A program made the position numbers and the translations under genes. From positions 11,849,598 through 11,913,597 of the forward strand of contig NC_049993.1 of assembly GCF_000003815.2 (NCBI RefSeq): DNA of 64,000 nt, given 5' to 3'. The notes beneath the pieces were generated by a model, which saw nothing but the letters and a program-made list of their open reading frames with translations, was not told where the DNA came from and ran no database searches. Shown here piece by piece: positions 1-44,100 of this stretch. Positions within the stretch are counted from its first letter, which is position 1, and each line of letters opens with the position of its first letter. This DNA comes from Branchiostoma floridae (taxonomy: Eukaryota; Chordata; Leptocardii; Amphioxiformes; Branchiostomatidae).

Positions 1-3000
1 AGCCGCAAGTTCTAGGTAAGTACTAGTACTCATGTCGACTTTCCAGATTTCAATACATGTATTTCCATTGATTATAGATTTCTTACGAGACTGTCACTTA
101 AAGCTTCTTTGAATAGAATCTTCAAGCAGGCTGCAACAGAAGGAACCACCGACAAAAATTAAGGCCTTTTCCGGAATAAAACAATCGGCACTTGCAGCAA
201 AATCACAAGAAAGCTCAGTTTGCCATAACAGTTAATTGCATCATGCATGCAACCATCGCACGTCGGTACGTGCCCGGGCCCTTAGTCTTAAAGTACATTT
301 AATATAGCGCTAGCTTTTCATCAGCCTGTCTTTATCGTTTCTGGTATTCCTTACAGAGATCAAGCATTTTTTGACGGATGAGGAGTGTGATCACGTGGTC
401 CGGCTAGCTAAGAAGGACGGGATGTTCGACAGTGTGACCAACACTCCCACCAAGTCTGGCAGCGTCAAAGTCATGGACATGAACCAGGACACGGCTCTCA
501 GTCTCAGGGAGGTGAGCGGCTGACGAAACTTCCTTAACCAGCAAAAACTGAAATGAAATCGATTTATTTGAATGTTGATTTGATTATATGCATGACCAAA
601 CAGAACATATTGTGGATCTGAATAAAGTCAAGTCAATCCTCTGGGAACCCCCAAACTGATGTGAGCGTGCGAATAAAAAATAAGTTTGGCAAAACAAGTT
701 GCTTTCAGTATGAAATCTAAGTGGTCAGAAGGGTTGAACAAATGACTTGACACACTGAGTGAGGTATACAAAACACTAGATTTTCAATTTTGCTCTTTCA
801 CGTTTTCTATGACATTGGAATCTACTTTGGCATTTATTTAATGACATAAGTATCCGCTTCGGCATATAACTGCTCATTTTACAGCTGTTTGCAATTGGTA
901 CGATTTACAGTGTGTTTGAATTTTTTTTTCTATTTTTCGAAACGGCCGAAAATTGATGCGCGCGCGGATGTCATCCATATGATACTATCAACATGGCCTT
1001 AACAGTCGTTGCCTATTGTATGAGAATATGTGGACCAAATATCGTTCATATGCTTACTAATAAAAGATGTCATTTTCTTTTCAATTCAGTTTATTCTGAC
1101 GATCGAGAACTCATTTGACATCTATTTGGATGAGGACGACATGCTGAAGATGTGAGTTGTTTACACATTCTGAAAGTTCCGGGAAAGTGCATTCAATCGA
1201 ATGGTGTTCAGCACCAAGGACAGGTCCACTTACTCCACTACACACTAGTGTGTGGACGTCACTGATTACGTTAACAACATTGGACCGGCCCGGACGCGCA
1301 ACTAGTAGAGAGAAACAAAACTCGTGTATTTGAATTTTTGCTATATCTTTATGCATTATGATTCTCCTCTTTTACCGACATGCACCAAAGCAATATCTAA
1401 AGTCTACCACGGTTTTCTGTTGCAGGTATTCCGAATTAGGCATGGATCGCAATGGTGACAGTGAGTCAAAGGCATTCCTTATCACTTAAACAAAGTTGTT
1501 TCCAAATCTTTGAAATTTCAACTTCCGCCGTTTTTTTCAGGACTTTCCGTTCTTGTTGTAGGTCATATGGTAACTCTTTATCTTTGCTATTTCCATCGTC
1601 CATATCTCAGCGGAGATATCAAGGGAAGAGCTTCATGGGCAAGATCCAAAGTCCGTCATTGATTGGTTGACGGACTACGTTGACAAACGGCCGTACAAAA
1701 AGTCCCGGATGAGCCGACAGGCCTGGTTGTACCCCAGCAAAATTCACGACAAGATTCTGGACGAGATACAAGAGAGGTGGATTTACACGGCTTTATCATA
1801 GCATACATCGCATATTTTTTCATTTGTGTTGGTAGTAATCATAGTACAATGCTGAACTTTCTTCACAAGATCAATACGGATGACTAAGGACGTTAAAAAA
1901 GGAATATTTTTTCAACCTCCTTGGGATGGCCAATCACTTCAGTCTTCAGAACGTAAACTCACTCGTAACACGCTTATGGGTCTGTAACTCTCGCGTTCTG
2001 AAGTGACTGGTCATCAGTATTGATCCTGAAGAATGCTACAGTGGTCGATTAAATTTTGATCCGTGTATACCTTTGTGTCGGAAGAAAGTTTAGCACTATA
2101 GCATCTGTCTTTCCTTCAAGTGATTGAAATGGACGTACATGTATGTCGGGGGATAATGCAATTGTACTAAAATTTTAGTACACCTTGATGGCTAGTTTGC
2201 CTCCATACGGAATCTTAAAGATCATGTACTGAGACATATCTTTTATCGTATAAATTTTTCCTCATCTAAATTGTTTGGATTTGCTTTCCCAGGGTGGTTA
2301 GCCTTGTGGGTTTGCCTCGCATTCTAATAGACAAGAACGACGAGTTCCAGGTGGTACAGTACGGGCCGAAGGGGCACTACCACGCGCACTGGGACTCCGG
2401 CAGCTGGGCCGAGAAGTACCCGTGCTGTCATCACGTCAAGAGCGGGGCGCGATGTAAGTCCTGCAGGTAAGGATAGAACATGCGCCGCGACATTTTGCGC
2501 GATAGTCTCTACCAGGCTGACTACGCTAGCTATTGTAGGGAGAATAATTTGCCAGGAGAGTTTTGCTACCCGGAGCTGTCGGCCAACCGCGCAACGGAGG
2601 GGAAACTTGAACCTTAGTGTGGACTGACTCCCCTGGCCAATTTCCAGACTTTTTGCCGAATTCTACGATCCCCGCACCCCCATAGGAATGCCTGGTGGAG
2701 GCTAGCGCCGAGGTAAGATTACATCTGCAAAACCCTTTTCAAAGGAGGGGGAAAGGAGGAATACTTATTTGGGTATGTATTTGATCGAATGGTGTTCAGC
2801 ACCAAGGACAGGTCCAGCTTACTCCACTACCGTACTGTACTGTACTGCACTAGTATGTGGACGTCACTGATATACGTTAGCAACACCGGACCGGACGCGC
2901 GACTTGGATTTGTTCAGCTCACTTCTTCAGATTATCTAACATTGTCTCCATAAGTACAAATTGATATTGACAGAAGATTGCGACACCTCAATTTTCTCTA

Positions 3001-4261
3001 TCTCTTCCTCCCTCTGTTTCTCTGGTCATATTACAGAGGCCGGTGAACCGTTAACCAAATGTCTGAAAGTGCTACTTATCGATTTTTTGTATAAAAAAAT
3101 TCATTCATGCCTTTCCTTTCCTTTTCTCCTACCGTAGGTTCATGACCGTGCTCCTGTACCTGAATGAAGTGGAGGGAGGCGGCGCTACTGCCTTTCCTAT
3201 CGCGAACAACGAGACATTCAACGAAAATGTGAGAACCTTCTTTTAATTCACATTAGGGATTAGACCATCCTAGTATCTCACTGAAGCTGCGGTACGTTAG
3301 CGGCGTCGCTGTGGCCGAACGATTTGACAGATCTCTCAACGATTTTTATCGATGAAAACGAACCATTTCATGAAGTTTGTTGTCTTCCAGTTATGATTTT
3401 CCATTGTAAAGTCAAGGGTAACACAAATCCATTTTAGGTGTACGGCTGCCAACGTTCAGTGAGATGCCCGGCCCGCTTTAGTAGCAAGAATATCTAAAAG
3501 GTCTTGCCCAAAGTCGTTATGCTTTGACTCTCCTCTGTCCATGATGTTGATCTTATGATCTATATATTAATCCTTATTCATCTCTGATGTGTTTTCGTCA
3601 TATTTTGCTCTAGTCATTCCGGATGAGCGGTAAGATTAACCTCCATCGGCACTGTGAAGACGCCAACTTAGTCGTCCCGGCGGAGAAGGGGAAGGCTATC
3701 ATCTGGTACAACCACCACCTGGATCCTACAACGGGTAAGAACTAATAAACTATTCCTACAATATTGATATCATATTTATACCATATTCAGCATCTCTCTG
3801 TCTTAGATTTCTGCGTACAGTGCTGAAATGATACTGCACTCGTACCCAATGCGTATAAGTGAGGGTGACACCAAAATGATGTTATGGAGAGATTCTAAAT
3901 TTATATACAGGTCAATATGGCCATATCCATGATAATCAAGTTTGGTAATCTTTTGAGTGACTGTTATGTCGATTGGGACTTTCGTAAAGGCTCATAGTTT
4001 ATAAAACACCATTGTCAATGAGTTTTCTTGCTGTTCGACATACATGTATGCCATTGATAGGGTAGCATACGTGTAAATTAAAGAAATGCCAACGTCACAA
4101 TTCCTGTCCTTACAGGGTGGGTGGGAGAAATGGACAGTTTCACTCTGCACGGGGGGTGTGGCGTCACCAGTGGACACAAGTGGATCGCTAACAAGTGGAT
4201 ACTGGTCAGCGACAAGCGAGACAAGGACCTGGACCCTAACTTCAAACCCAACAGAGCATAA
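1..4261 (+). CDS. P4HTM: Transmembrane prolyl 4-hydroxylase (P4HTM), 3' part
   Basis: Iron/2-oxoglutarate-dependent dioxygenase of the ER-membrane P4H-TM type, which in vertebrates hydroxylates prolines and affects HIF-alpha. Exons read: 1-15, 357-511, 1090-1151, 1426-1460, 1611-1776, 2293-2466, 3138-3228, 3614-3734, 4116-4261, all GT/AG with matching phases, giving 320 residues and TAA at 4259. The N-terminus and membrane anchor lie outside the window. Seen in order: a short FLTDEECDHVV segment; one complete EF-hand loop (DRNGDTEISREE) split across 1426-1460 and 1611-; then the catalytic jelly roll with HYHAHWDSG (HxD iron ligands), CCHHVKSGARCKSC insert, GGGATAFP, AIIWYNHH, and LHGGCGVTSGHKWIANKW, which supplies the distal His and the 2-oxoglutarate-binding Lys. 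EF-hand plus P4Hc distinguishes it from collagen P4H. Only one of the family's two EF-hands has a canonical loop here. Identity is sure; substrate is not shown. Confidence 0.92.
1195..1302. repeat. Dispersed repeat, copy 1 of 2 in P4HTM introns
   Basis: About 108 bp sharing GAATGGTGTTCAGCACCAAG, CAGGTCCA, TACTCCACTAC, GTGTGGACGTCACTGAT and CGGACGCGC with a second copy at 2784-2905. No target-site duplication was recognised, so the class is unknown. Confidence 0.6.
2784..2905. repeat. Dispersed repeat, copy 2 of 2 in P4HTM introns
   Basis: Same orientation as the copy at 1195-1302. It carries a small internal expansion of GTACT units (around 2830-2846). Both copies are intronic. Confidence 0.6.
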
Positions 4262-5275
4262 GCTGTACGGTCAAAGATGTCCTACGTACAGTGTACACCA
4301 TCTAAAACATTTCTGGAAGTGTCCTCATGACTTTTTCCTAAAACACGGACATTGTGTAGATGTATCGAACTTTCAAAGCAAAAGGGTTTGTCATTACTGG
4401 AGAGCAACAAAATAGAAATATTTTGTCAACAGCTATTGTTTAGTTGTAAGCTAAGTTTAAATGTATTTTTGTATGAAAAGAACATTGTTATGACGTACGC
4501 CTTTCTGCTTCTTCCCGTGGTTACCTTTGAAAGTACTTTCAGTCAGCACAAATTCAGCCTGTGTATGAAACTATGAATTATCAAGTTACGGCTGCAGTAG
4601 CTCTATGTACTTTTATATACAATGCAGATTTGTTACACCCTTACAAATCTTGCAACGTTTTTTTTTTACACATTGAATGTTTTTTTTTGCAAATTTGATG
4701 TAGTGATGGTAACTGGTTAAATGTGTGCAATACTTCTGTGGTGCGGAGCTGGTGTGATGTTAACATGCATTTATGGTTGGGAGAAATACCGAAAGATTAG
4801 AACTTTAATCACTGATTTGTATGATGTCATGTGCTTCCTTAATGTTGATTGTTATCATTGTGATACAGCATCAATGGCTGACTAGGCTGGATGAAGAGTT
4901 CACAAGTTTGATATCTGGCAATGGCATTCTTGGCTAGATGTTGTGTCCATGGGAATGGCACAAACCTATTAAAGATAGTCATCACGGCTAGATTTTCAGG
5001 CTCCAAAGTCTTTGGTTCCTTTATTCAATTCTTCTATCAAAGATACTGAAAAAGGCAGTATGTAGCCTGGAAATGGCACTTTTTCTGAGAGACTTTAAAG
5101 TCATTTAATACCTCAGTAGGGTTTGTACAACTCAGTCCACATATTTTCAATTGTACAATTATACAAACAAATTCTAGAAAATATAATTCTACTGTTTAAA
5201 GCAAGTTGAAACATTCAACCTTTTGTTTTTCATCGTGGTTGACTCTAATAAAGCAACAAGTTTTCAAGTGTTCAT
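4262..5275 (+). other. P4HTM: P4HTM 3' untranslated region
   Basis: AT-rich noncoding stretch after the P4HTM stop, without a convincing reading frame. It ends at a canonical AATAAA (5247-5252). The next gene's 3' end on the opposite strand begins a few tens of bases on. Confidence 0.6.
5247..5252 (+). terminator. Polyadenylation signal of P4HTM
   Basis: Canonical AATAAA about 1 kb after the stop, the most plausible one seen in the 3' region. Confidence 0.55.
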
Positions 5276-14644: not shown

Positions 14645-17600
14645 ATGGTGAGTATAAGATCTGTTTCTTGTGGCTCTAGTTTAGAACTGCAAGTTTGATA
14701 ATTTTGCTTCTTGTTCTCGATTTTCAGGTTGTTAGTAGCTTATTTACAAGGTTTCTTGATATACCACAATATCACAGTTTTCACCAGAACTTGTAGAAAT
14801 AGAAAATGGCACTTTTAATCAATCAGTAAAGTTGTATCAATCTATAGCTCTGTAGGCTGTTATACAGCAAGAAAACGACTGTACTGGTCAAATCAGTTGC
14901 AGTGTAAGAAATCCGCCCAATCGGATCCACAAGCCACGGTGTAGAAAATGAAGATGCATTTCTGATGATGAGAGAGGACTTGATTTTACAAAGAAATGAC
15001 GGGCGAGATCTGAAGCTTTATTGGGGAATACATTGCATATTAAGCTGTTATCAATAATATTAGTGATTTAATTTCTAAAGTCTCTCCCCTTTTCAAATTT
15101 TGAAGAAAAAAAAAAACTCCTTTGCCTGTTCTAGATGCTCTCACGAGCCAAGCCGGCCACTGGACCAGCGGCCTCCAGTCCTGCTAAGGAGTCCAGCAAG
15201 AAGAAGAAGAAACTGCCCAAACTGGAGGACTACCTGACCAACAGGGACTACACTGGGGCCATCACACTTCTCGAGGTAGAGGACAAAATGTCATTTGAAG
15301 AGCATGATTTAATTCTCTCATTTCCAAATACCTTCGAATTCGTACACTGTAAGACTGTAGCTATATTGATTTTGTATGTCGATATTGTTTTATGTTATTT
15401 TTTATTTATGTTTGATAATCAAACCGAGTAATGTTGTTTCTCTTGCCCCACCAGTTTAACAGATCGAGTGGTAAGGGAAGTGAAGAGGTGGACATGTGGA
15501 TAGCCTACTGTGCCTTTCACCTGGGAGAGTACAAAAGAGCCATGGAAGTAAGTTACCCTTATTTCTCCAACCCAATTTGGCAAATGATCCTGTTTATCAG
15601 TACAACAAAATCTGCAAGCTTAACAGTTTTTAAGGGGATTTTCAAGAATTAGATTTGTTGATTTGGATTGGTCCACAGTAGTTATAAGGCTAAACCTTGG
15701 GATCTTTTTCTTTTACACTACCAGTTAATCTCACCTGCTGATGTTTCGATGCCTCTCAGACATCTTCCTCAAAGCTTCTTATTGGAGTTCAACTCTATAT
15801 ATAGCAAACATAGGTAGCACTTCATTGGTTGTGTAAAAGAAAACCCTACTATCCTATGACCTACTAGTACCAACGTTAACCTGATGAAATTATTTTCGTA
15901 TGGTTAAACCATGTTGCTAAAACTGATACCCGTCCATCCCCAGGAGTACCAGTCCATGACGAAGCGAGACGGGTGCCACCCTGACGTCTGGGTGAACCTG
16001 GCCTGCTGTGACTTCTTCCTGGGCATGTACAAGGAGGCAGACGAGGCCGCGCAGAAATGTGAGTCCTGAGGGCTGGGTGGGCGTGGGTTTCCATGGCAAC
16101 GGGAAAAGTCCTTACATAGAGGATGACTCATTAGAAAATAACATTGGACAATATTCATGCATGATGTCTTTGATTTATAGAATTATATTTCTCAGCTAAA
16201 CTGTAGCAAACTTGTGAAATTTTGTTTTGAACAGTACTAACATAGCATCAATGATTGTTTGCAGTCACTTTTCCGCTATGTCTTAGATTGTTTAATCACA
16301 AACCCATAGAAAAATCTGACATTAACTTCTTTGAGAGAAAAGATTGCAGTATCTGAAATCATTGCATGACCTTATTTTGTTATAATATTTCAATTTCAAA
16401 CAATGGACAGTCAAAATGGAATTATACAAAGCCTGATAGTTTAATTTGCACATGGTCATAAGACTATCTGCTATCCATTGTTAACCAACTACTAACCAGT
16501 GTTAACCACCCGCTAACCAATGTTTACCAAATGTTACCACCTGTTGGCCATTGTTAACCACCTGCTAATGATTGTTAACCAGTTACTAACCATTGTTAAC
16601 CACCCGCTAACCATAATTGTTAATCAAATGTAACTGCTAACCATTAACTTACTGATAATAGTAACTAGCTGCTCATTATTGTTAACCACCTGCTAATGAT
16701 TGTAAACCAGTTACTAACCATTGTTAACCACCTGCTAACCAGTGTTAACTACCAGTAACCATTATTTACCACATGTAACAACCTGCTTACCACTAACCAC
16801 CTGCTAACCATTGTTACCAAGTGTTAATTATTGTTAAACAAACGTTAACCACCTGCTAACCAGTGTTAACTACCAGTAACCATTATTTACCAAATGTAAC
16901 CACCTGCTAACCACCTGTTTCCACATCTAGCCCCCAAAAGCCGCCTGCAGAACCGCCTGCTCTTCCATCTCTCACACAAGGTGAGCCAGAATTCCGACGT
17001 AAGCCAAACATTTGTTTTTGCCAGTTCCCTCTCACAACTGGCTTGTACCTCATGCACCTCTGCATGGCTGACATAAAGGCTGGGACTACAAGGTCTCCCT
17101 CCCTCTGCAAGCATGCATCTACATGTATAAGCATGAGGCAATGTCTGGTACTTTTTAGGAACTGCCTGTTACAGAAGATCTTGCATGGTGCTTGAATTTT
17201 GTGACACCAAAATACGATATTTTCTTGTTATCTATACCAAGAATAGTATCATTCAATTAGCATACCGTCAAATGTTTACACCAAATACAAGCCCTACTAA
17301 TGTTATTGAACCTTGCGACAATATCTTCAAGTCTGAAGAACAATTTTTTTGATGGCGCAATTTTCAATAACTCAAGGGTTTATGTATGTATTTGGTGCAC
17401 ACACATACGTGTATGTTGAATGAATAATACTATAATTATAATTGTTGTGGAATATAAAAAGAAAATGGTTTCATGCCGTCCTTAAGTGAAGCTTTCATTA
17501 ATTTTTGGGACAGAAACAGATGTCCTATATGTAGTGGAGGGTTTCATATCCAAACAGAATTGTTAAAAACTGAAGCCCTGCTGAAATGCTAGGAAGGAAG

Positions 17601-20600
17601 AAGTTACTATAAACAAAGAGAGGAATCTATATAAAGCCTTTGACAATGATAGTAAAACTTGCCATGTTGTGCATCATGAAGCCACACTGTGTTCATGTGT
17701 GCAGCTATCCTGTCATCACCCAACTTTTCAGTCTTTGCAACAAGCATGTGACAGCTGTGTAAAGCTCACCGCTCAAAGAAGCATGGCATTCTTCATTGTG
17801 CACTGTGATGTTTTGTGTGGTTGCACGTGAAAGCCCCATGTCATCAAACTGCATGGATCATTCGAGCTGTGCTGTAGTATACTAGTAGTAGAATTGTGTT
17901 ATTTTGTAGAAGTTGTATGGGACATCACAAGAAAAAGTAGTGAATCAAGAGCTAAGAGTTTTGCATTTTTTTTAAACGTTGGTCTTTTTTAGTATCTTAG
18001 TATCTTTTAGTATTGATTTGATGACTTTTAATGAGATACTAAGAAAGATCCCACATCAAATATAAATGTGGAGTTTCAAAATAACTGAATATTTTTTTAT
18101 CATACATTGTATGTGTGCAGATTGTACCAGCATACTAAACACTGATATGCAATACGCATTTTGGACTCATGATATCATTTTCATAATGGAGTGCATGTTG
18201 CGTAAACTGGGAATACAAAAGTGCCCATACAAATTGTATATGTACGAGTATATGCACTTAGTAATGTGTGGCTTGTTCAAATTTGCTTGATTTGTCTCTT
18301 CTGCATGTTTTGCTGCTTGATATCTTGTCTGTACTGTGACTATTGTGAAACGTGTCCATGTTTTATGTGTCTATACGTGTGGCTTGTGTTCCAGTTTAAT
18401 GATGAGAAGAGACTGATGCAGTACCACCAGAACCTGCAGGATATCATCGAGGACCAGCTCAGTCTGGCCTCCATCCACTACCTCCGCTCACACTACCAGG
18501 AGGCGATAGACATCTACAAGAGGATTCTCCTAGATAACAGGTCACTTAAGATTATCACACATCTACCCAGAAATGTGATTTTCTACTGATTGAAATCTTT
18601 TCACTTGTAGCAAAAGAGATACATGATTTTGATATGGCAGTGGGAGTCAGATACTAGAAAATTGGACTATTGTTTTGAGTATCCCCCATTCACAAGTTTT
18701 CGCAAAGAAAGAGAGAGTCTGGATTGTGGCCTGATCATCTGGACTTGAACCAGATCCTCCTTGATAACAAGTCGCTATCAATTACTAGACATTTACATAC
18801 AAATGTGAGGGGAAATCTTCTCACTAGTTTACATTTATCTATCGACAAAAAACTTTTCAGTTGTAGCAAAAGAGTTACGGGGTATCATATAGGAGCTGCA
18901 TTTTTTTACTACCCTGACTCAATGTACAAAGTGTATTTTGATGAATCTAAAGCTGTAGAGAGGGATGTTGCAGTTTTGTTTCAAAGGTTATGATAAAACT
19001 CCTTCTAGGATGGGTGTAGCCGTATGTTGTACAGGGAGCTCAGCTATAAAAACATGACAACATGAGCACATATTAGATGATATCTAGGATTTCATTGTAC
19101 AAAATCTATTTCTATTTGCAGTGATTTGTGAACATACCGTAATATGTTTTTTTGTTTAAGTCTAGTATTAGGTTGAAGTCAGAACATACAATGTACTTTG
19201 TTTAAAGAGTCACTGCTGATCTTTTCTGTTGTCTAATGCTACCATTATCTGCCCTACCTAACAGAGACTACCTGGCCCTGAATGTGTATGTGGCCCTGTG
19301 TTACTACAAGCTGAACATACAATGTACTTTGTTTTAAGAGTCACTGCAGATCTTTTCTGTTGTCTAATGCTACCATTATCTGCCCTACCTAACAGGGACT
19401 ACCTGGCCCTGAATGTGTATGTGGCCCTGTGTTACTACAAGTTGGACTACTATGACGTATCCCAGGAGGTGTTAGCTGTGTACCTACAGCACTACCCTGA
19501 CAGCGCCATCGCTATCAACCTCAAGGCCTGCAACCACTTCAGACTCTACAACGGCAAGGCTGCTGAGGTCAAACATTTCTCTTCAACTTGTTGTCGCAAG
19601 TTTTTCTGGAAAAGCTAAAATGAGCATGTACAATGTGTAAGGTAGAGGGAAGTCATAATGACTGTGTTTTAGTGAATGCTCTATTTACCTAGTTAAAGAT
19701 GGCTAAACTCTTAGGGATTTTCTCTTTCAAAAAACGGAAAAAGTAGAAGGAATGTTTAAAACTCTTCCCCCAGCCTTTCAAATGTAGTACAGTCAAACCT
19801 GTACAGGTAGCCACCATTTTATAACAATACTAACAAAGTTCTGCTAACTGTGTATTCTCTGTTGAGCATCACATCAGTTACCTCTTTACCAGGTAGACCA
19901 GTTTCAGATTCAACAAGTTTCATATGGACATTTTGGCACAAGCATTAAGAATCCTTTCTATAGTGACCGCCGCCTGTCCACACAGACCAGATTTTATCTG
20001 TCCCATGAGTGGTCTTCTTGCACAGTTTTGACTGAAGATTTTCCTGTATCCCACAGCAAGAGCTGAAGACCCTCTAGGAGATGGCCTCCCCCTCCTTCAC
20101 CTTTGTTGCCCTTTCTGGTCTTCTTGCGCAGTTTGACTATGGCTTTAAGATTTTCCTGTATCCCACAGCAAGAGCTGAAGACCCTGCAGGAGATGGCCTC
20201 CCCCTCCTTCACCTTTGCTAAGGAGTTGATCAAGCACAACCTGGTGGTGTTCCGGGGCGGGGAGGGGGCCCTGCAGGTCCTCCCGCCCCTGATAGATGTC
20301 ATCCCTGAGGCACGACTCAACCTCGTCATCTACTATCTCAGACAAGGTGAGATTTTGATATTTACGACTGAAGTTGTACCAGAACTAAACTTAAAGTTGT
20401 ACCAGAACAGCACTTGAAGAACTCACAGTGTTCCAGTTTTCTGCAATAGGTAAGAATTCATATCTCCACATTTTTTGGTGGTCTAAAAATAGTTGCTTGA
20501 TCAATTTACTTAACAAACTTGCAGAAAAAACACAAAAATGCTATAGTGTAAGATTGAGCTATGACCATTGAAATGCAAATAGAGACACCAATATGGCACC

Positions 20601-23600
20601 TGCCTGCTTCATTGACATGGAATGTAAGGGAAGTAGTTGTTTGTTATGTACAATGCTTTTAAGCAGTGTCTTATTTCTGTCATCTCTCCCTCCCCAGATG
20701 ACGTATCTGAAGCCTATAACCTGATCAAGGACCTGGAGCCAACCACGCCGCAGGAGTACATCCTGAAGGGCGTGGTTAACGCCGCCCTCGGACAGGAGAC
20801 GGGATCGCGGGAACACCTGAAGATCGCCCAGCAGTACTTCCAGCTGGTGGGAGGGTCTGCCAGCGAGTGTGGTGAGTCTTACAGAGATGTTTAGGTTGAT
20901 GCTGTTTTTCTGATATGGAAGTTCTTGTGTAATGGTACAAAATGGTATGTTTTATTGACATTTACCTTTAAGTTTATAAGTACCAATGTAGCAGGCTGAA
21001 CTATACTCCCAGCCAGAATATATACCCAGGTATATTTTGGCCAGGGGTGTATTATGACATGCTGCACTGGTAACAGACCAGTGCAAAGAAAGTACCATAA
21101 GAAATTAAGAATGATATAAACTTATAAAAGAACAAAAGAGACTGTGATGAAAGCTTGCTTTAAAGGGTTTTATGTTTTTGCTGATTTTTGAGATGTTGCT
21201 TATTAAAAGATCTTATTGGTCCTTAGTGTTCTTTGTTGCATGTTAAAATCACCTAGGAGAAAAGATGGTTTGCTAAGAGTGAGAAAGATAAAGAACAGTG
21301 TACCATTGACTGTATGTGTACCTTAATGCCTGTTCCTGTTCTTGCAGACACCATCCCTGGCAGGCAGTGCATGGCGTCATGTTTCTTCCTACTCAAACAG
21401 TTTGAGGATGTGCTGATCTATTTTAACTCAATCAAGGTAGATGGTAATTTCTGTCTTGTTCCTAATAGTATGGTCTTTTTGATTCTAACAAAAATCAGTT
21501 TTGGTTGCTCCTAGAATCTTAGGTTGAATGCTTGGAATGTTTGCCATAGACCCCGCATTTGTAATTATCATATTTTTCTTACATATATTTCTCTACATAT
21601 ATGTCTGAAGAATCCTGAGAGTTTATTTAATTCTTCTGATTGTGACAGATCTTAGGAAATGTTGAGGAAGAGAGGAAAAACTTCTTGGCCTTTAAGGGTA
21701 ATGTCTTTTCAGTGCCATGTTTCATTGAAGTTGTGTTGTGCCTTTTGCAGAGCTACTTCTACAACGACGACACGTTCAACTTCAACTACACGCAGGCGAA
21801 GGCCGCCGTGGGAAACTTCAAGGAGGCAGAAGAGGTGGCCCTGCTTGTGCAGAACGAGAAGCTGAAGAATGACTACACCTATCTCAGCTGGCTGGCTCGC
21901 ATCTGTAAGTTACACTGAAGTGTCTGTAGGGATTTTCTACTGGGGCTCTGTTAGAATTAATTCAGAATCCTTTGTAAACAAAAGATAGCAGTTCTTTGGA
22001 TCTTAGCAGGTTAAAGAAAAGAGCACTTTAGAGAGGAATAGTACTTTAAGTATGATGTTCTTCCCCCACAGACATCATGAACAACAAGGCCCGGCTTGCC
22101 TGGGAGTTGTACCTGAAGATGGAGACTTCAGGAGAATCCTTCAGTCTCCTGCAGCTGATAGCTAATGACTGTTACAAGGTATGGAGTCTTATGGAGAGGA
22201 ATAAGAATCAGATATGTAAGAACTTACAAGCACTGGATACATTTTCCATGATGAAAACAGAAGTTGTCTTAAAGAGATGTATTGACCATGGAAACGTAAT
22301 GGAGAAGTACCTTGTCATTTTTTTGTGTGGATATAGAAAGTAATAAACAGGTTGACACTTTGTCTTGTACTGTTGTAGATGGGTTAGGTGCAAAAATTTA
22401 ATGTATTACCATGCTTGCCACAGATGGGACAGTTCTACTACGCAGCAAAGGCGTTTGATGTACTGGAGCGACTGGACCCGAACCCTGAGTACTGGGAAGG
22501 CAAGCGTGGCGCCTGTGTTGGTGTCTTTCAGCAAATCATCGCCGGGCGGGAACCAAGGTGAGTCAGAGTTCCCACCAGAGCTTCCACGCTTCATGTAAAT
22601 TCTACAATCAGCTTGTATAGAGCTTTCTGTAAGTTACAAATGGCTAGAAGTAGGGGTGGGTACCGGTACAGAAAATACAGGTATGGTCCAGACCTGAATC
22701 TGGGCCTAATTATCTGTCAAAACTTGTGAATGGGCGATACTCTAAACAACGGTCCATTTTGCTACAAAAGATTCTGTTTGGTGCAGCATCCAACATCCAC
22801 TGGCATTTTAAAATCTTATCTTATGTAAACTTAATGTTTTAGACCAAGTTTGAGTGTAAAACTTGAGTAAACGACTATCAACTCTCCTCTACTTCCCTCG
22901 TTATTTATTTTGATCTGTAAGCCCCCAAACACCTGAACGCCTACCAGTATAATCTGTTCAGTTTTGAATTGGTCCAAAACCAGGTCCACTGATATTTCTA
23001 GAAAAACTGGACCGTTCTCTCTCTCTCTGTTTGACCGGTTTAGCGTCCGTTCTTCCCTGTAGCAGGGGTTGGACGTAGAAAAACTGGTATTGTACCGGTA
23101 CATCTTACCAGTACCCACCCCTAGCTAGAGGCCCTTTCTTTAAGACATGTGCAATGTTAAGACATGTGCAATGGCCAGAGACACTGCTGATGGCTGGCGT
23201 GTGTTTACTGCTTCACTTCAGCACCAGAAGAAACACCCTGCAGCTGGTGGAGTAATGTTAACATATCGTTTCTCAGTCTTCAAAGACAGACATGTGCAAT
23301 AAAGTTTCCCTTGCGTTTTTAGGGAAACGTTGCGGGACATCATCCAATTGCTCCACAATACGTCTAATATGCAAGTGGAGTATATAGTGCGGACCATGAA
23401 GAAGTGGGCAAAGGACAACAGGCTGGGCATTCCATGATGGTTAGCACAACACGTTTCCACACAAGTCGTCCTGTCACGTTGTAGGGCTATAGTCTGAGTG
23501 GTTTGTACTACAGTGTGCTTTACCAGGTCACTGATGTTTGTGGACCCAGAGCTGTGGTGTGTGGCCTACTGTATTTACCCCAATAATTGCACTCTCTCCA

Positions 23601-24757
23601 TATAAATAATACTGTACTACTTACTATTACTACAGTAACACAAATGATAATTTATTCTAACTTCAGCATGCACAGAACAGAGCTAGAAAAGATCATATCG
23701 GGTGCATAGTTTTTTTTAACAATGATTTGATGTGTGCATTATTGGAGTAGGTATGGTAGATGTAACACAAAAGAGTCTAACTCTGTCTTCTGGTTCTAAA
23801 AGACCTGTCCAAATGAGTAGTCCTGTCCAGTTTTTCAACATTTCTGCAGCAATTGTCAGGTAAAAGGTGGCAGCTGATCAGCCAGTGCAGCCCTGAGCAC
23901 AAAGAAGGCAGCTGGTTTGAATCCTCTTTTTTCCGCAGAACCTCACGAGTCTTCCTGACTTCTCCTGTTGTAGTGTGGTGTCCTGGTCCCCCTGTGTCAT
24001 CCTGATCCTCAGGTTCAGCACAGCATGGCACACTGGGATCACCAGCACTCAGAGTCACTTCTCTCACTGCCATCTTTTCTTCTTCATTTGTTCTTTTAAA
24101 ATTGGCAGTGCCTATGACTTCATGTACATTACATAGAGGAACATAAATGCCTTTGGGAGCATTCTCCTGCACAAAACCTACTTAACCAGGTGGAGGTTTC
24201 TACTTTAGTGGGCATGGCCTCTGACCAGGTAAAATTGATTCTCTGACAGCTGACAGCCACACCCACAAAAGTGGAAATCTCAGCCCAGTTTATCAAAATC
24301 TCCCCAAGGTAGATTGTATAGGCTGTGGGCAAGGCTTTGCATGGGAGAATGCTCTTATGTGTGTTCCTTTACACATGGCAGAATGTATAGGAGCCACGCT
24401 GTCTTTTCTGTTGATGTGTGCTTGCATTTGCATTGGCAACAAAAGTACATGTAATAGCCTGGTATGCAGCCTTGTTCAGCTAAGACCTACTTCCCAATGG
24501 TTGTTACTGTTGGGAAGCAGATGAAAGCTGGCCTGCATACCTAGGCTATGATATGGTCCTAGTGGTAAAGGTGTTGCAGAATCTATTTGATTGACAGAGC
24601 CCAGTTTAACCTGCAGCATATGTTGTTCTCTCCATGCTGCAGGGACAGTGTGCGAGAGATAGTCCAGCTGCTGAGGAACACCAGTAACCCACAAGTAGAG
24701 TACATCACCAGAACCATCAAGAAATGGGCAAAGGACAACAGAGTCTCACTCAGCTAG
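14645..24757 (+). CDS. TTC26: Intraflagellar transport protein 56 (TTC26/DYF-13), two alternative 3' exons
   Basis: TPR-repeat subunit of the IFT-B complex, which moves cargo in cilia. Exons: 14645-14647 (ATG only), 15135-15275, 15455-15547, 15944-16058, 16931-16980, 18395-18540, 19396-19567, 20169-20346, 20698-20871, 21348-21436, 21751-21904, 22072-22178, 22424-22557, then either 23323-23437 (TGA) or 24643-24757 (TAG). All phases join; 556 aa with either end, against about 554 in human. Near-identical landmark blocks: [134 protein letters not shown] and KKWAKDN. TPRs fill residues ~60-520. Three exon boundaries have local duplicated copies (see findings). Lies head-to-head with ZIP and tail-to-tail with IDO. 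Confidence 0.96.
16087..16100. promoter_or_regulatory. RFX X-box-like motif in TTC26 intron 4
   Basis: GTTTCCATGGCAAC differs by one base from the symmetric X-box GTTGCCATGGCAAC; the right half-site GGCAAC is perfect. It lies 28 bp after the donor of exon 4. RFX factors drive ciliary genes including IFT subunits, usually from promoter-proximal sites; intronic function here is inferred. Confidence 0.45.
16470..16925. repeat. Degenerate minisatellite in TTC26 intron 4
   Basis: Some twenty variants of a 17-21 bp unit around GTTAACCACCTGCTAACCA, with drifted copies. It runs up to the acceptor of the next exon (16931), so its last copies form the region upstream of that splice site. Confidence 0.85.
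18524..18877 (+). repeat. Local duplication of the exon 6 donor region of TTC26
   Basis: The end of exon 6 plus about 80 bp of intron (18524-18620) reappears diverged at 18754-18877. ATTCTCCTAGATAACAG corresponds to ATCCTCCTTGATAACAA, and both blocks end with GTAGCAAAAGAG. The second copy has lost the donor AG/GT context and is therefore not an exon. Confidence 0.7.
19182..19443 (+). repeat. 131-bp tandem duplication across the exon 7 acceptor of TTC26
   Basis: Copies 19182-19312 and 19313-19443 differ at only a few positions. Each has the intron end, a CCTACCTAACAG acceptor, and the first ~48 bp of the exon. Only the second copy continues into the full exon (19396-19567). Confidence 0.9.
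20010..20218 (+). repeat. Tandem duplication across the exon 8 acceptor of TTC26
   Basis: Copies 20010-20106 and 20116-20218 are offset by about 112 bp. Both have TCCTGTATCCCACAG followed by the start of exon 8. The first copy has TAG at 20075-20077 where the second has CAG, so the upstream exon start is closed by a stop. Confidence 0.88.
20986..21070. mobile_element. Imperfect hairpin element in TTC26 intron
   Basis: Weak inverted ends (ATGTAGCAGG against CATGCTGCAC) enclose a stronger inner palindrome around ATATACCCAGGTATATT. Resembles the hairpin at 6778-6866. Boundaries are approximate. Confidence 0.35.
22651..23123. mobile_element. hAT-like MITE, copy 1 (473 bp)
   Basis: Left end TAGGGGTGGGTACCGGTAC; the right end is its imperfect reverse complement, ACCAGTACCCACCCCTA. 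Flanked by 8-bp direct repeats GCTAGAAG (22643-22650) and GCTAGAGG (23124-23131), one mismatch. An 8-bp target-site duplication with this TIR style points to the hAT superfamily. No transposase. Lies in the last constitutive intron of TTC26. Related to the copy at 48467-48641. Confidence 0.85.
24455..24548. mobile_element. Hairpin MITE-like element between the two TTC26 terminal exons
   Basis: TAGCCTGGTATGCAGCC at the left is matched by GGCCTGCATACCTAGGCTA at the right. The inner arms CTTCCCAA and TTGGGAAG continue the hairpin. Ends 94 bp before exon 14b. Confidence 0.55.
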
Positions 24758-25410
24758 AACATACACCAATCTGCTGACCAGCTTCTACTATGTTTCAATT
24801 ATATTATAGAAAGAAAGGAAATACATTTTTATCATAGGGTATCAAGACATTGGGACTTTCTGTTCATTTTAGAAAAGAAAATTTATTAGAATCTGATATC
24901 CAAGTAAATTTTGTAACTTCTATGGCTCATTCCCTGACATATTGGAGAACAATATGAGCATTGTACATGTATATATTTGCATATAAAATATTGTATATGA
25001 TGTAGGTTGTCATCATCTCTTCTTCTCATAACTATTATTGGCAATCTAGAAACTATTTGGGGATTGATATTCTCATAACTTAAAAAAGTGGACAGTCTAC
25101 CTGAAGGTATCAAAATTGTGTGTTTTTTATTTCTTTCTTGGTCAGATTGACAAATAGGAGTTTTTGTGGGGTGAATTCACAACATTTTCAACAGTTGTAG
25201 TTGAATCCACAATGTATAAAGCATTGTATTGCAGATATAAGAACAAATTAATTGATGTAAGGTACAATGTATGGATGTTCCCTTCCATAGATTTGTTGAA
25301 TGTTCTGTATAATTTACTTCAAGGATTTGATGCTATCAGTCATGCTGTAAATAAAATGTTCTGTACAGCAGTTTGAAACTTTGTAATAAAGATAGAACAC
25401 ATTTTTCTTC
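24758..25410 (+). other. TTC26: TTC26 3' untranslated region
   Basis: AT-rich noncoding stretch after the second terminal exon. AATAAA occurs at 25350-25355 and 25385-25390, so cleavage near 25400-25410 is likely. By contrast, no AATAAA or ATTAAA was seen between the first terminal exon's stop and exon 14b. Confidence 0.6.
25385..25390 (+). terminator. Polyadenylation signal of TTC26
   Basis: AATAAA in the context TTGTAATAAAGATAG, following an earlier one at 25350. It sits some 400 bp from the oppositely oriented IDO stop. Confidence 0.55.
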
Positions 25411-41165: not shown

Positions 41166-44100
41166 ATGGAACAGTCATTCTTTGCTGCAGCTAATGATTT
41201 GGACAATGTCCTTGATGAGTTTGAAAGAAATGAAGGTATGGGTGGTCAAGGAGGTTATTGGTGTTTCAGGGAATCAGAAGTTATTAATATGTTGTAATTT
41301 TAATTTGTTTGAACATAGAAGTACAGTAGAAGCCATTTAATCGCACACCCCATTTGCCAGCATATTCATGCATTTATATATATACCATCCAGGTGGTGCA
41401 ACATATGAAGTTATCCAGCTGGGCTGCACCGGTTTGGGATTCCGTGCAATGTACAGAAGTGTGCGGTAATCTGTTGTGCAATTAACTGGCTTCTACTGTT
41501 CCATATGTTACTGTTATGGTTCATATATACTATATTACTGTGGGTGTGCTGGTGCACCAAAATATTGGTGGTTGGGTTTTGCTCACACTTTATTTTATGT
41601 TGTGCACCCCAAATGTTTTCGGTGCATCAACATTTTTAGGTTAGGCGCACCAGTGTATCTATTGCCAAAAATGAATTTGTAGCTCTGCATTTAGTGATTA
41701 ATCATTCACCGCGAAGTCAATCAATTTACTATGTGGCAAAATGCCTGAAATTCTTTTGAATCATGTCATCAATTAGTTCATACTAAAAGAGTGCTGGCTC
41801 CCAGAGCTTATTTAATGTGACAGACTGTCCCCACCAACCTATATCTCTACAGATTTCCAGCTTGGGCAGAGTGTAGACTTTGCTACAGCCAAGCCAACTA
41901 CACCGGCTCAAACTCCACAAACCTCATCAGCACCCGGCCATCGGGGCCCCAACAGCAGCCTGGCAGGCTTCTACCCTGTCACAACAGGAGATGGGGCAAG
42001 GGCTAGTCCCCAGTACCACCCTGCTGCAATGCTACAGCATCCCACAGGGGGCGCTGTGTACAATGGTGGGAACTACAGTGGTGTGGACGGTGGGATGGCA
42101 AGCATTGGTGCTCAGAGCCAAGTGAAAGGATATCCGGGTCAGTCAAATTTGAATGGCCCAACAGGACAGCTTTTGGGGACATCCAGTAACTACCAAACAC
42201 AAGCAGGACTTGTGAACTATCAGGCAGGCACCTTCCATGGGTACCAAGGACAGCCAGTAATGAACACACATCAAGGTCAAGTAGCTGTGAATAATCTTCA
42301 GCAACAGCAAGCTTTGAGCAGCTACCAAACAGTGACAGGACAGAACAGCTATTCCGTACAGAGAGGGGTGACTAGCTTTCCAACACAGCCACCAATGGGC
42401 ACTTACCAACAACATGTCGCAAACAGCAGTTTCCAGTCCCAAGCAGGGTTGAACAGCTATCCAGCAGCTGTAGGTCTTGCCTCTCACCCTGTACCAGTTG
42501 TGTCACAACATCAGACAGTTGGACAACCAAACCTTCAGCTGCCTGGATCAATCCAAGACANNNNNNNNNNNNNNNNNNNNNNNNNNNNNNNNNNNNNNNN
42601 NNNNNNNNNNNNNNNNNNNNNNNNNNNNNNNNNNNNNNNNNNNNNNNNNNNNNNNNNNNNCGATCCTCATAAAATACCCAATCATCACAGCGCCCGGTCC
42701 ACTGATTTTTCCATCTAACTGCAACAGTTCTTTTTTGTGCCATATACAGATCATCAGACGATCATAAGACTTCAAAAAGGTTTGCTGTTTTTTTCTTATC
42801 ATGCTTTAATTTCTCCCTTCTACAGTTCTGCCGTCAGATATCGGCTGGGAGGCCCCCGTGTGGGTCCCCGACGAGGACGCCCCAAACTGCATGAAGTGCG
42901 AGTCCAAGTTCACGTTCACCAAGCGGCGACACCACTGCAGGGCGTGCGGGAAGGTGCTGTGTTCGGCCTGCTGTAGTCAGAAGGCACGGCTGGCGTACAT
43001 GGACAACAAGTCAGCCCGTGTCTGCTCAACTTGCTACAACATTCTACAGAGAGGTACCAAGATATACATTGGACATGCCATATAAACCATGAGCATTTAT
43101 ATTCATTGTCTACAGATGTTCATCAAATAATGATTTAGCCATTTTGTGTACACGTTTTTTTCCTATTCACCCATTAGACCACTTGTGGTCATTTGTGTAT
43201 TTAGCTTACTGGCATAAACATGTAATAAAAGATTATTATTATTATTGATTCCAGGCAAGTGCTGTTCAATACCTTTAAAGCATACAAAGACATTTTCCTG
43301 TTTGAGATCCTTAAAGAAATGAAAATATAATGCATTCTACATAATGCATTACATAGAAGTTCTTGTGCTCTCTCAACTGCTGTTTGCAACTCAGGAGGAT
43401 TTTTACATTTTGCATTATATATATCACATAATAGCATGTGCTGTTACCGGTATTGGAATATAAAAATTGTGATGTTCTTAAAATGCTTCATGTTATCCCC
43501 AGCCCAGGCCAGAGGTCAGATTGCAGGCATCAGCCAGGTCACCCCATCTTCAGGTCAGGCTTCCCCCAACCCTAACAACCCCATGGAGTACTGCTCCACT
43601 CTGCCACCTATGCAGCAGGCACAGGAAGCACTGCAGAGGCCACCCCCTAGTGTGCTGGTCCCTGTAGGTGGAAGGCCCCAAGGTGCTTTGGGTGTGTAGA
43701 AACTGCTGTAAATCTTGAAACTTCTGTGCTGATTTTCATGATAGGAACTCAATCACGAAGTTAAAGCACTCTTCGCTCGCTATCCGATGTATCGTCTGTT
43801 GTTCCCTGTCTTGTGAGCATGAGACATGCTTGCTTATAAATGCAAGCTTGATGGCAAACCTGTGGTCAACCACAAACAAGTCCTCTTCCTACAAAAATAA
43901 GTCCCAGCAAACTTAAAAGGATAGCTAATAATATTTCCTAAAATAGTATATGTATGACAAGTTTTATCCTCTCCATTTCTTTTAAAACAAGAACCCACTA
44001 ACCAGATGCATTCCCATGTGTACAAACGTGTGCCTTTTTCTTCTTTAATCTTTAATATTTTGCTTTGCTGTGAAATCCTCATACAGGTGTTGCCCAGAGA

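Follow-up and report, generated by a model that had tools for sequence, protein, structure and literature searches.

The TTC26/IFT56 gene of Branchiostoma floridae has two similar terminal exons, and the question is whether both of them serve as its end. It was addressed in a window of 64,000 nucleotides (positions 11,849,598 to 11,913,597 of contig NC_049993.1), the whole stretch of DNA that was analysed, in which the two exons are here called 13a and 13b. The sequence argues strongly for both being functional alternative last exons, and TTC26/IFT56 is probably made with either of two C-termini. The pair very probably goes back to an old tandem duplication, after which purifying selection has preserved both copies as alternative last exons that exclude each other in use.

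The body common to both forms (15135..22557, plus strand) includes 12 coding exons, located at 15135-15275, 15455-15547, 15944-16058, 16931-16980, 18395-18540, 19396-19567, 20169-20346, 20698-20871, 21348-21436, 21751-21904, 22072-22178 and 22424-22557, with AG/GT borders and phases consistent at 12 of the 12. Spliced to either last exon it encodes 555 amino acids with no internal stops. Residues 5-551 of the form ending in 13a match residues 6-552 of Chlamydomonas IFT56 (8bd7_E) with an E value of 1e-224. Of the 14 chains listed for this form, the remaining 13 are much weaker matches (E 4e-12 and above). The form ending in 13b matched ten Pfam families (E up to 0.01), nearly all of them TPR families and the best ANAPC3 and TPR_19. 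By its full-length match the gene appears to be a complete orthologue of IFT56/TTC26.

The last common coding exon, exon 12 (22424..22557, plus strand), ends in phase 2 with the donor AAG/gtgagt, which scored 10.4, the highest of the 12 donors in leave-one-out scoring. The earlier note had placed this donor correctly after 22557 and in phase 2, but it numbered the exon 13, which it is not when coding exons are counted. The higher count presumably includes a 5' non-coding exon, since an AG stands immediately upstream of the ATG at 15135.

Several repeats were observed in the gene. At 19182-19443, an apparently recent 131-base tandem duplication (97% identical) copies the acceptor and the 5' part of coding exon 6, and use of the upstream acceptor in the right phase would give an early stop. 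Similarly, a repeat of 71 bases (97%, 20035-20217, starts 112 bases apart) copies the acceptor and the start of coding exon 7, with an in-frame TAG after six codons in the upstream copy. The intron after coding exon 3 contains a minisatellite-like array of TTAACCA-rich units (16439-16914), and the intron before 13a two inverted repeats of 18 bases (94% identical) separated by 437 bases (22651-23123), MITE-like by eye. Elsewhere in the window, exon-like frames at 300-4300 presumably resemble a transmembrane prolyl 4-hydroxylase, and a search of Pfam up to E 0.01 with one 57-residue piece of them gave no match. A long open frame on the plus strand (41816-42715) contains a run of 100 N (42561-42660), which is either masked sequence or a gap in the assembly.

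Exon 13a (23323..23437) and exon 13b (24643..24757) lie on the plus strand with their starts 1,320 bases apart, and both are in phase 2. Each begins with a G after an AG acceptor, completing the Arg codon split by the donor after 22557, and continues with 37 whole-codon residues before a stop, TGA at 23435-23437 in 13a and TAG at 24755-24757 in 13b; the acceptors, phase, shared Arg, length of 38 residues and coordinates described in the earlier note were thus all recovered. The whole-codon residues are identical at 24 of 37 positions, which with the split Arg gives the 25 of 38 reported before. Most of the differences had been called conservative and many codons silently different, and indeed 8 of the 13 replacements are BLOSUM62-positive and 15 of the 24 identical residues are encoded by different codons. 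The core motif described as strictly shared is present in both exons, but I and R are separated in it by a single variable residue instead of two. The extreme C-termini differ, LGIP in 13a and VSLS in 13b. Vertebrate TTC26 is known with a single C-terminus, which ends near NRVSI.

When both peptides were searched with tblastn against the whole window, 13a and 13b matched each other with an E value of 2e-15, and no third copy of the exon was seen in the window, the next matches having E values of 0.2 (13a as query) and 0.53 (13b as query). A minus-strand frame of 134 amino acids between the two exons matched no Pfam family at E values up to 0.01. As homologous neighbours on the same strand and in the same phase, 13a and 13b have the features of a tandem exon duplication. 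Because each has a stop of its own, one transcript can give only one ending, and their use is mutually exclusive.

The two exons differ at 43 of the 111 aligned bases, 12, 7 and 24 of these at the first, second and third codon positions, respectively. The NG86 method gave a pS of 0.862, which is beyond saturation, and a dN of 0.306; the ML estimate of dS by Biopython (8.6) has no quantitative meaning. The similarity is confined to the exons, stopping sharply at acceptor and stop codon. The 60-base flanks are 28-32% identical in ungapped comparison, and when the 100- and 300-base flanks were aligned locally, their scores were matched by 59, 275, 259 and 162 of 300 shuffles, i.e. the flank alignments fall inside the shuffled range, also when compared block by block. 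A recent duplication is ruled out by the saturated silent sites and the unrelated flanks. The same observations bear on the suspicion that two alleles were placed in series by the assembly: the two 97% local duplications at exons 6 and 7 could be of such a kind, but 13a and 13b, with 43 of 111 bases different, silent sites saturated and flanks unrelated, are unlike alleles, and an assembly or haplotype artefact is barely conceivable as the source of the pair.

Simulations were used for evaluating the selection on the two copies. With 43 base differences accumulated neutrally, none of 10,000 runs (5,000 from each copy) kept an identity of 24 of 37 residues, the maxima being 19 and 21, and about 73% of the runs gained a stop. 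The proportion of BLOSUM62-positive replacements was 26% in the neutral simulation as against the 8 of 13 observed. The observed state was then defined as an intact copy pair with at least 24 of 37 residues identical and at least 24 third-position differences. With one copy neutral and the other constrained, and equal time for both copies, only 1 of 18,000 simulated pairs (12 settings of 1,500 runs each) reached this state, and neutrality of one copy since the duplication is thereby essentially excluded. When constraint acted on both copies (omega 0.05-0.1), the observed state was reached in 0 to 16.6% of the runs per setting, depending on time, and with one copy at omega 0.3 in 0 to 2.1% of the runs per setting. 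A partial relaxation of one copy (omega 0.3) lies within what the simulations allow. Both copies are intact and appear to be under protein constraint. Saturated silent sites, a dN of about 0.3, unlike flanks and the simulations all agree with the earlier reading of the pair as an old duplication under protein-level selection and not a recent one.

Comparison with the C-terminus of Chlamydomonas IFT56 gave nearly equal results for the two exons, 18 of 37 aligned positions being identical in 13a and 17 of 37 in 13b. At the 13 positions at which the exons differ, the Chlamydomonas residue is found in 13a alone at five, in 13b alone at four and in neither at four, one of the last being the final residue, where Chlamydomonas has none. 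Such symmetric retention is expected of two functional copies, as a decaying copy would have lost more, and it supports that reading without being decisive because several of the changes easily revert (I/V, D/E). By this comparison neither 13a nor 13b would be callable as ancestral.

The splice sites of the two exons are of unequal strength. Scored with a small matrix built from the gene's own 12 acceptors, the acceptor of 13a reached 3.7, tying for the weakest, against 3.7-12.5 (leave-one-out) for the 12 other exons and 9.2 for 13b. Between 22600 and 24759, 151 AG sites were scored. Exon 13b ranks third among them, and 13a is absent from the top ten, whose other nine members are decoys scoring up to 10.6, some of them upstream of 13a. 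Since decoys outscore 13a, the matrix only ranks the sites; it does not predict their use and does not favour 13a. No yTnAy branch-point motif was found in the 50 bases before 13a, two of the 12 other exons likewise lacking one there, and a TTAAC branch-point-like site is present at -37 of 13b. Given the weak acceptor, the missing motif and the better-scoring decoys, the use of 13a could be rare. The same features would fit a relic, that is, one exon dead or never spliced in after a role lost only recently. Both exons are nevertheless open and preceded by AG acceptors, and the simulations speak against a copy neutral since the duplication, though not against a recent loss; altogether a relic seems very unlikely. 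Under the reading of two working exons, exon 12 would be spliced either to 13a, with the nearer and weaker acceptor, or to 13b, with the farther and stronger one.

The polyadenylation signals do not appear to provide each last exon with a site of its own, and the pair is not assigned to the alternative last exons that have separate poly(A) sites. Between 22500 and 25400, AATAAA or ATTAAA occurs at 23298, 25 bases before 13a, and at 25350 and 25385. The latter two, both AATAAA (25350..25390, plus strand), likely mark the end of the 3' UTR. No AATAAA or ATTAAA was found between 23438 and 25349, leaving no canonical signal specific to 13a, and of 11 other hexamers scanned between the two exons only TATAAA (23601), TTTAAA (24095) and CATAAA (24142) occurred. 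Exon 13a may therefore be a long terminal exon reaching the common signals at 25350 and 25385, which would be the simplest reading, or it may end at a weak variant such as the TATAAA at 23601.

This arrangement bears on two further explanations. In the first, 13a would act as a switch for unproductive splicing: a second splicing event would join a donor in the 3' UTR of a transcript containing 13a, for example at 24308 or 23859, to the acceptor of 13b, the 13a stop would then lie upstream of a junction and lead to nonsense-mediated decay, and choosing 13a would lower the amount of IFT56. Donor-like sites for this are available, as among the 91 GT sites scored between the exons the best reached 7.7 (24308) and that at 23859 reached 6.2, the gene's 12 real donors scoring 1.9-10.4, and the weak acceptor of 13a would also suit such a switch. 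A decay switch, however, needs no 37 codons held at protein level, and selection on the residues of 13a implies that the protein is made; this explanation is very unlikely. The second accepts both exons as functional and concerns only what the choice between them does: the duplication would have been kept for expression control, the C-termini being interchangeable and the choice of 3' UTR being what matters. The choice between 13a and 13b would change the 3' UTR from about 1.9 kb to about 0.6 kb, measured to the common signals, and the UTR of 13a, lacking AATAAA/ATTAAA of its own, would take in the region of 13b. The mostly conservative replacements fit interchangeable C-termini; the differing extreme ends (LGIP against VSLS) and the differing peptide models described below do not, and expression control is rather unlikely as the whole reason for the pair.

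If instead the two C-termini matter as protein, the difference between the forms would be limited to the final helical segment and the very C-terminal end. AF2 models of the isolated 37-mers, which as single-sequence predictions are weak evidence, gave one long helix for 13a (pLDDT 87.1, pTM 0.48) and a hairpin with helices at 2-10 and 16-31 for 13b (pLDDT 88.6, pTM 0.58). IFT56 is described as a peripheral component of IFT-B1 that forms a TPR spiral and has a link to inner dynein arm cargo (PMC10191852). Flagella that lack IFT56 are depleted of motility proteins (PMC3936282). The Ttc26 of the hop mouse has a stop 125 residues before the C-terminus, and in two-hybrid and pull-down assays its binding of IFT46 is abolished or severely impaired (PMC4207615). 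Because of this loss of binding, the exchange of C-termini might tune how IFT56 sits on IFT46 and IFT-B1, and with it the motility cargo carried, by tissue or stage; this step is tentative, being based on a truncation of 125 residues and not on the 38-residue segment. It is improbable that there are two kinds of IFT-B train, set apart by the IFT56 C-terminus and serving different cilia, such as motile epithelial as against sensory or left-right organiser cilia, through an isoform switch in a core IFT subunit. The locus is of interest because IFT56, a subunit of IFT-B, is connected with motility cargo and needs its C-terminal region for binding IFT46 (PMC3936282, PMC4207615). A natural duplicate of this C-terminus, conserved separately, would be an evolutionary experiment on the IFT46 interface and would offer an easy way of asking whether the trains in use differ between cilia.

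Judged by titles and the opening lines of abstracts, the papers listed that connect TTC26 with amphioxus, IFT56 with Branchiostoma, or TTC26 with isoforms, alternative splicing and cilia name no duplication of the TTC26/IFT56 last exon, no paper was listed that treats alternative last exons together with tandem exon duplication, and the portions seen of the papers on Chlamydomonas IFT56 and mouse Ttc26 mention none (PMC3936282, PMC4207615). None of five C-terminal peptide strings occurred in the papers searched. With the peptide of exon 12 and 13b, none of 14 pattern matches in viral contigs and 50 in prokaryote contigs was confirmed by tblastn, and a relative is hardly expected there. To the extent of these sources the TTC26/IFT56 pair is new, while duplicated C-terminal exons as such are already known, also from cephalochordates (PMC5896119).

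The orthologous Chlamydomonas IFT56/DYF13 (8bd7_E) and mouse Ttc26 are among the nearest systems for comparison; the C-terminal segment of the Chlamydomonas protein aligns with both 13a and 13b, but its listed chain has one C-terminus as against the two exons here. In GNAO, exons 7 and 8 are the last coding exons. The final two exons of cephalochordate preGNAS are duplicated in B. floridae and B. belcheri, diverged and partly conserved, and several such G-alpha exon duplications are reported in the lancelet lineage (PMC5896119). Like 13a and 13b, the preGNAS final exons and the vertebrate GNAO exons 7.1-8.1 and 7.2-8.2 combine local duplication with mutually exclusive use (PMC5896119). They differ in belonging to another gene family and in being exon pairs instead of single exons, and the preGNAS duplicates are documented in two lancelets whereas 13a and 13b are known from this one genome. 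The C-terminal exons 9a, 9c and 9d of tropomyosin likewise provide alternative C-termini for a helical protein, and they alter both its end-to-end contacts and its affinity for partners (PMC8152229). Unlike IFT56, tropomyosin has more than two alternatives, its isoforms have been studied as proteins, and it is a coiled coil and not a TPR protein.
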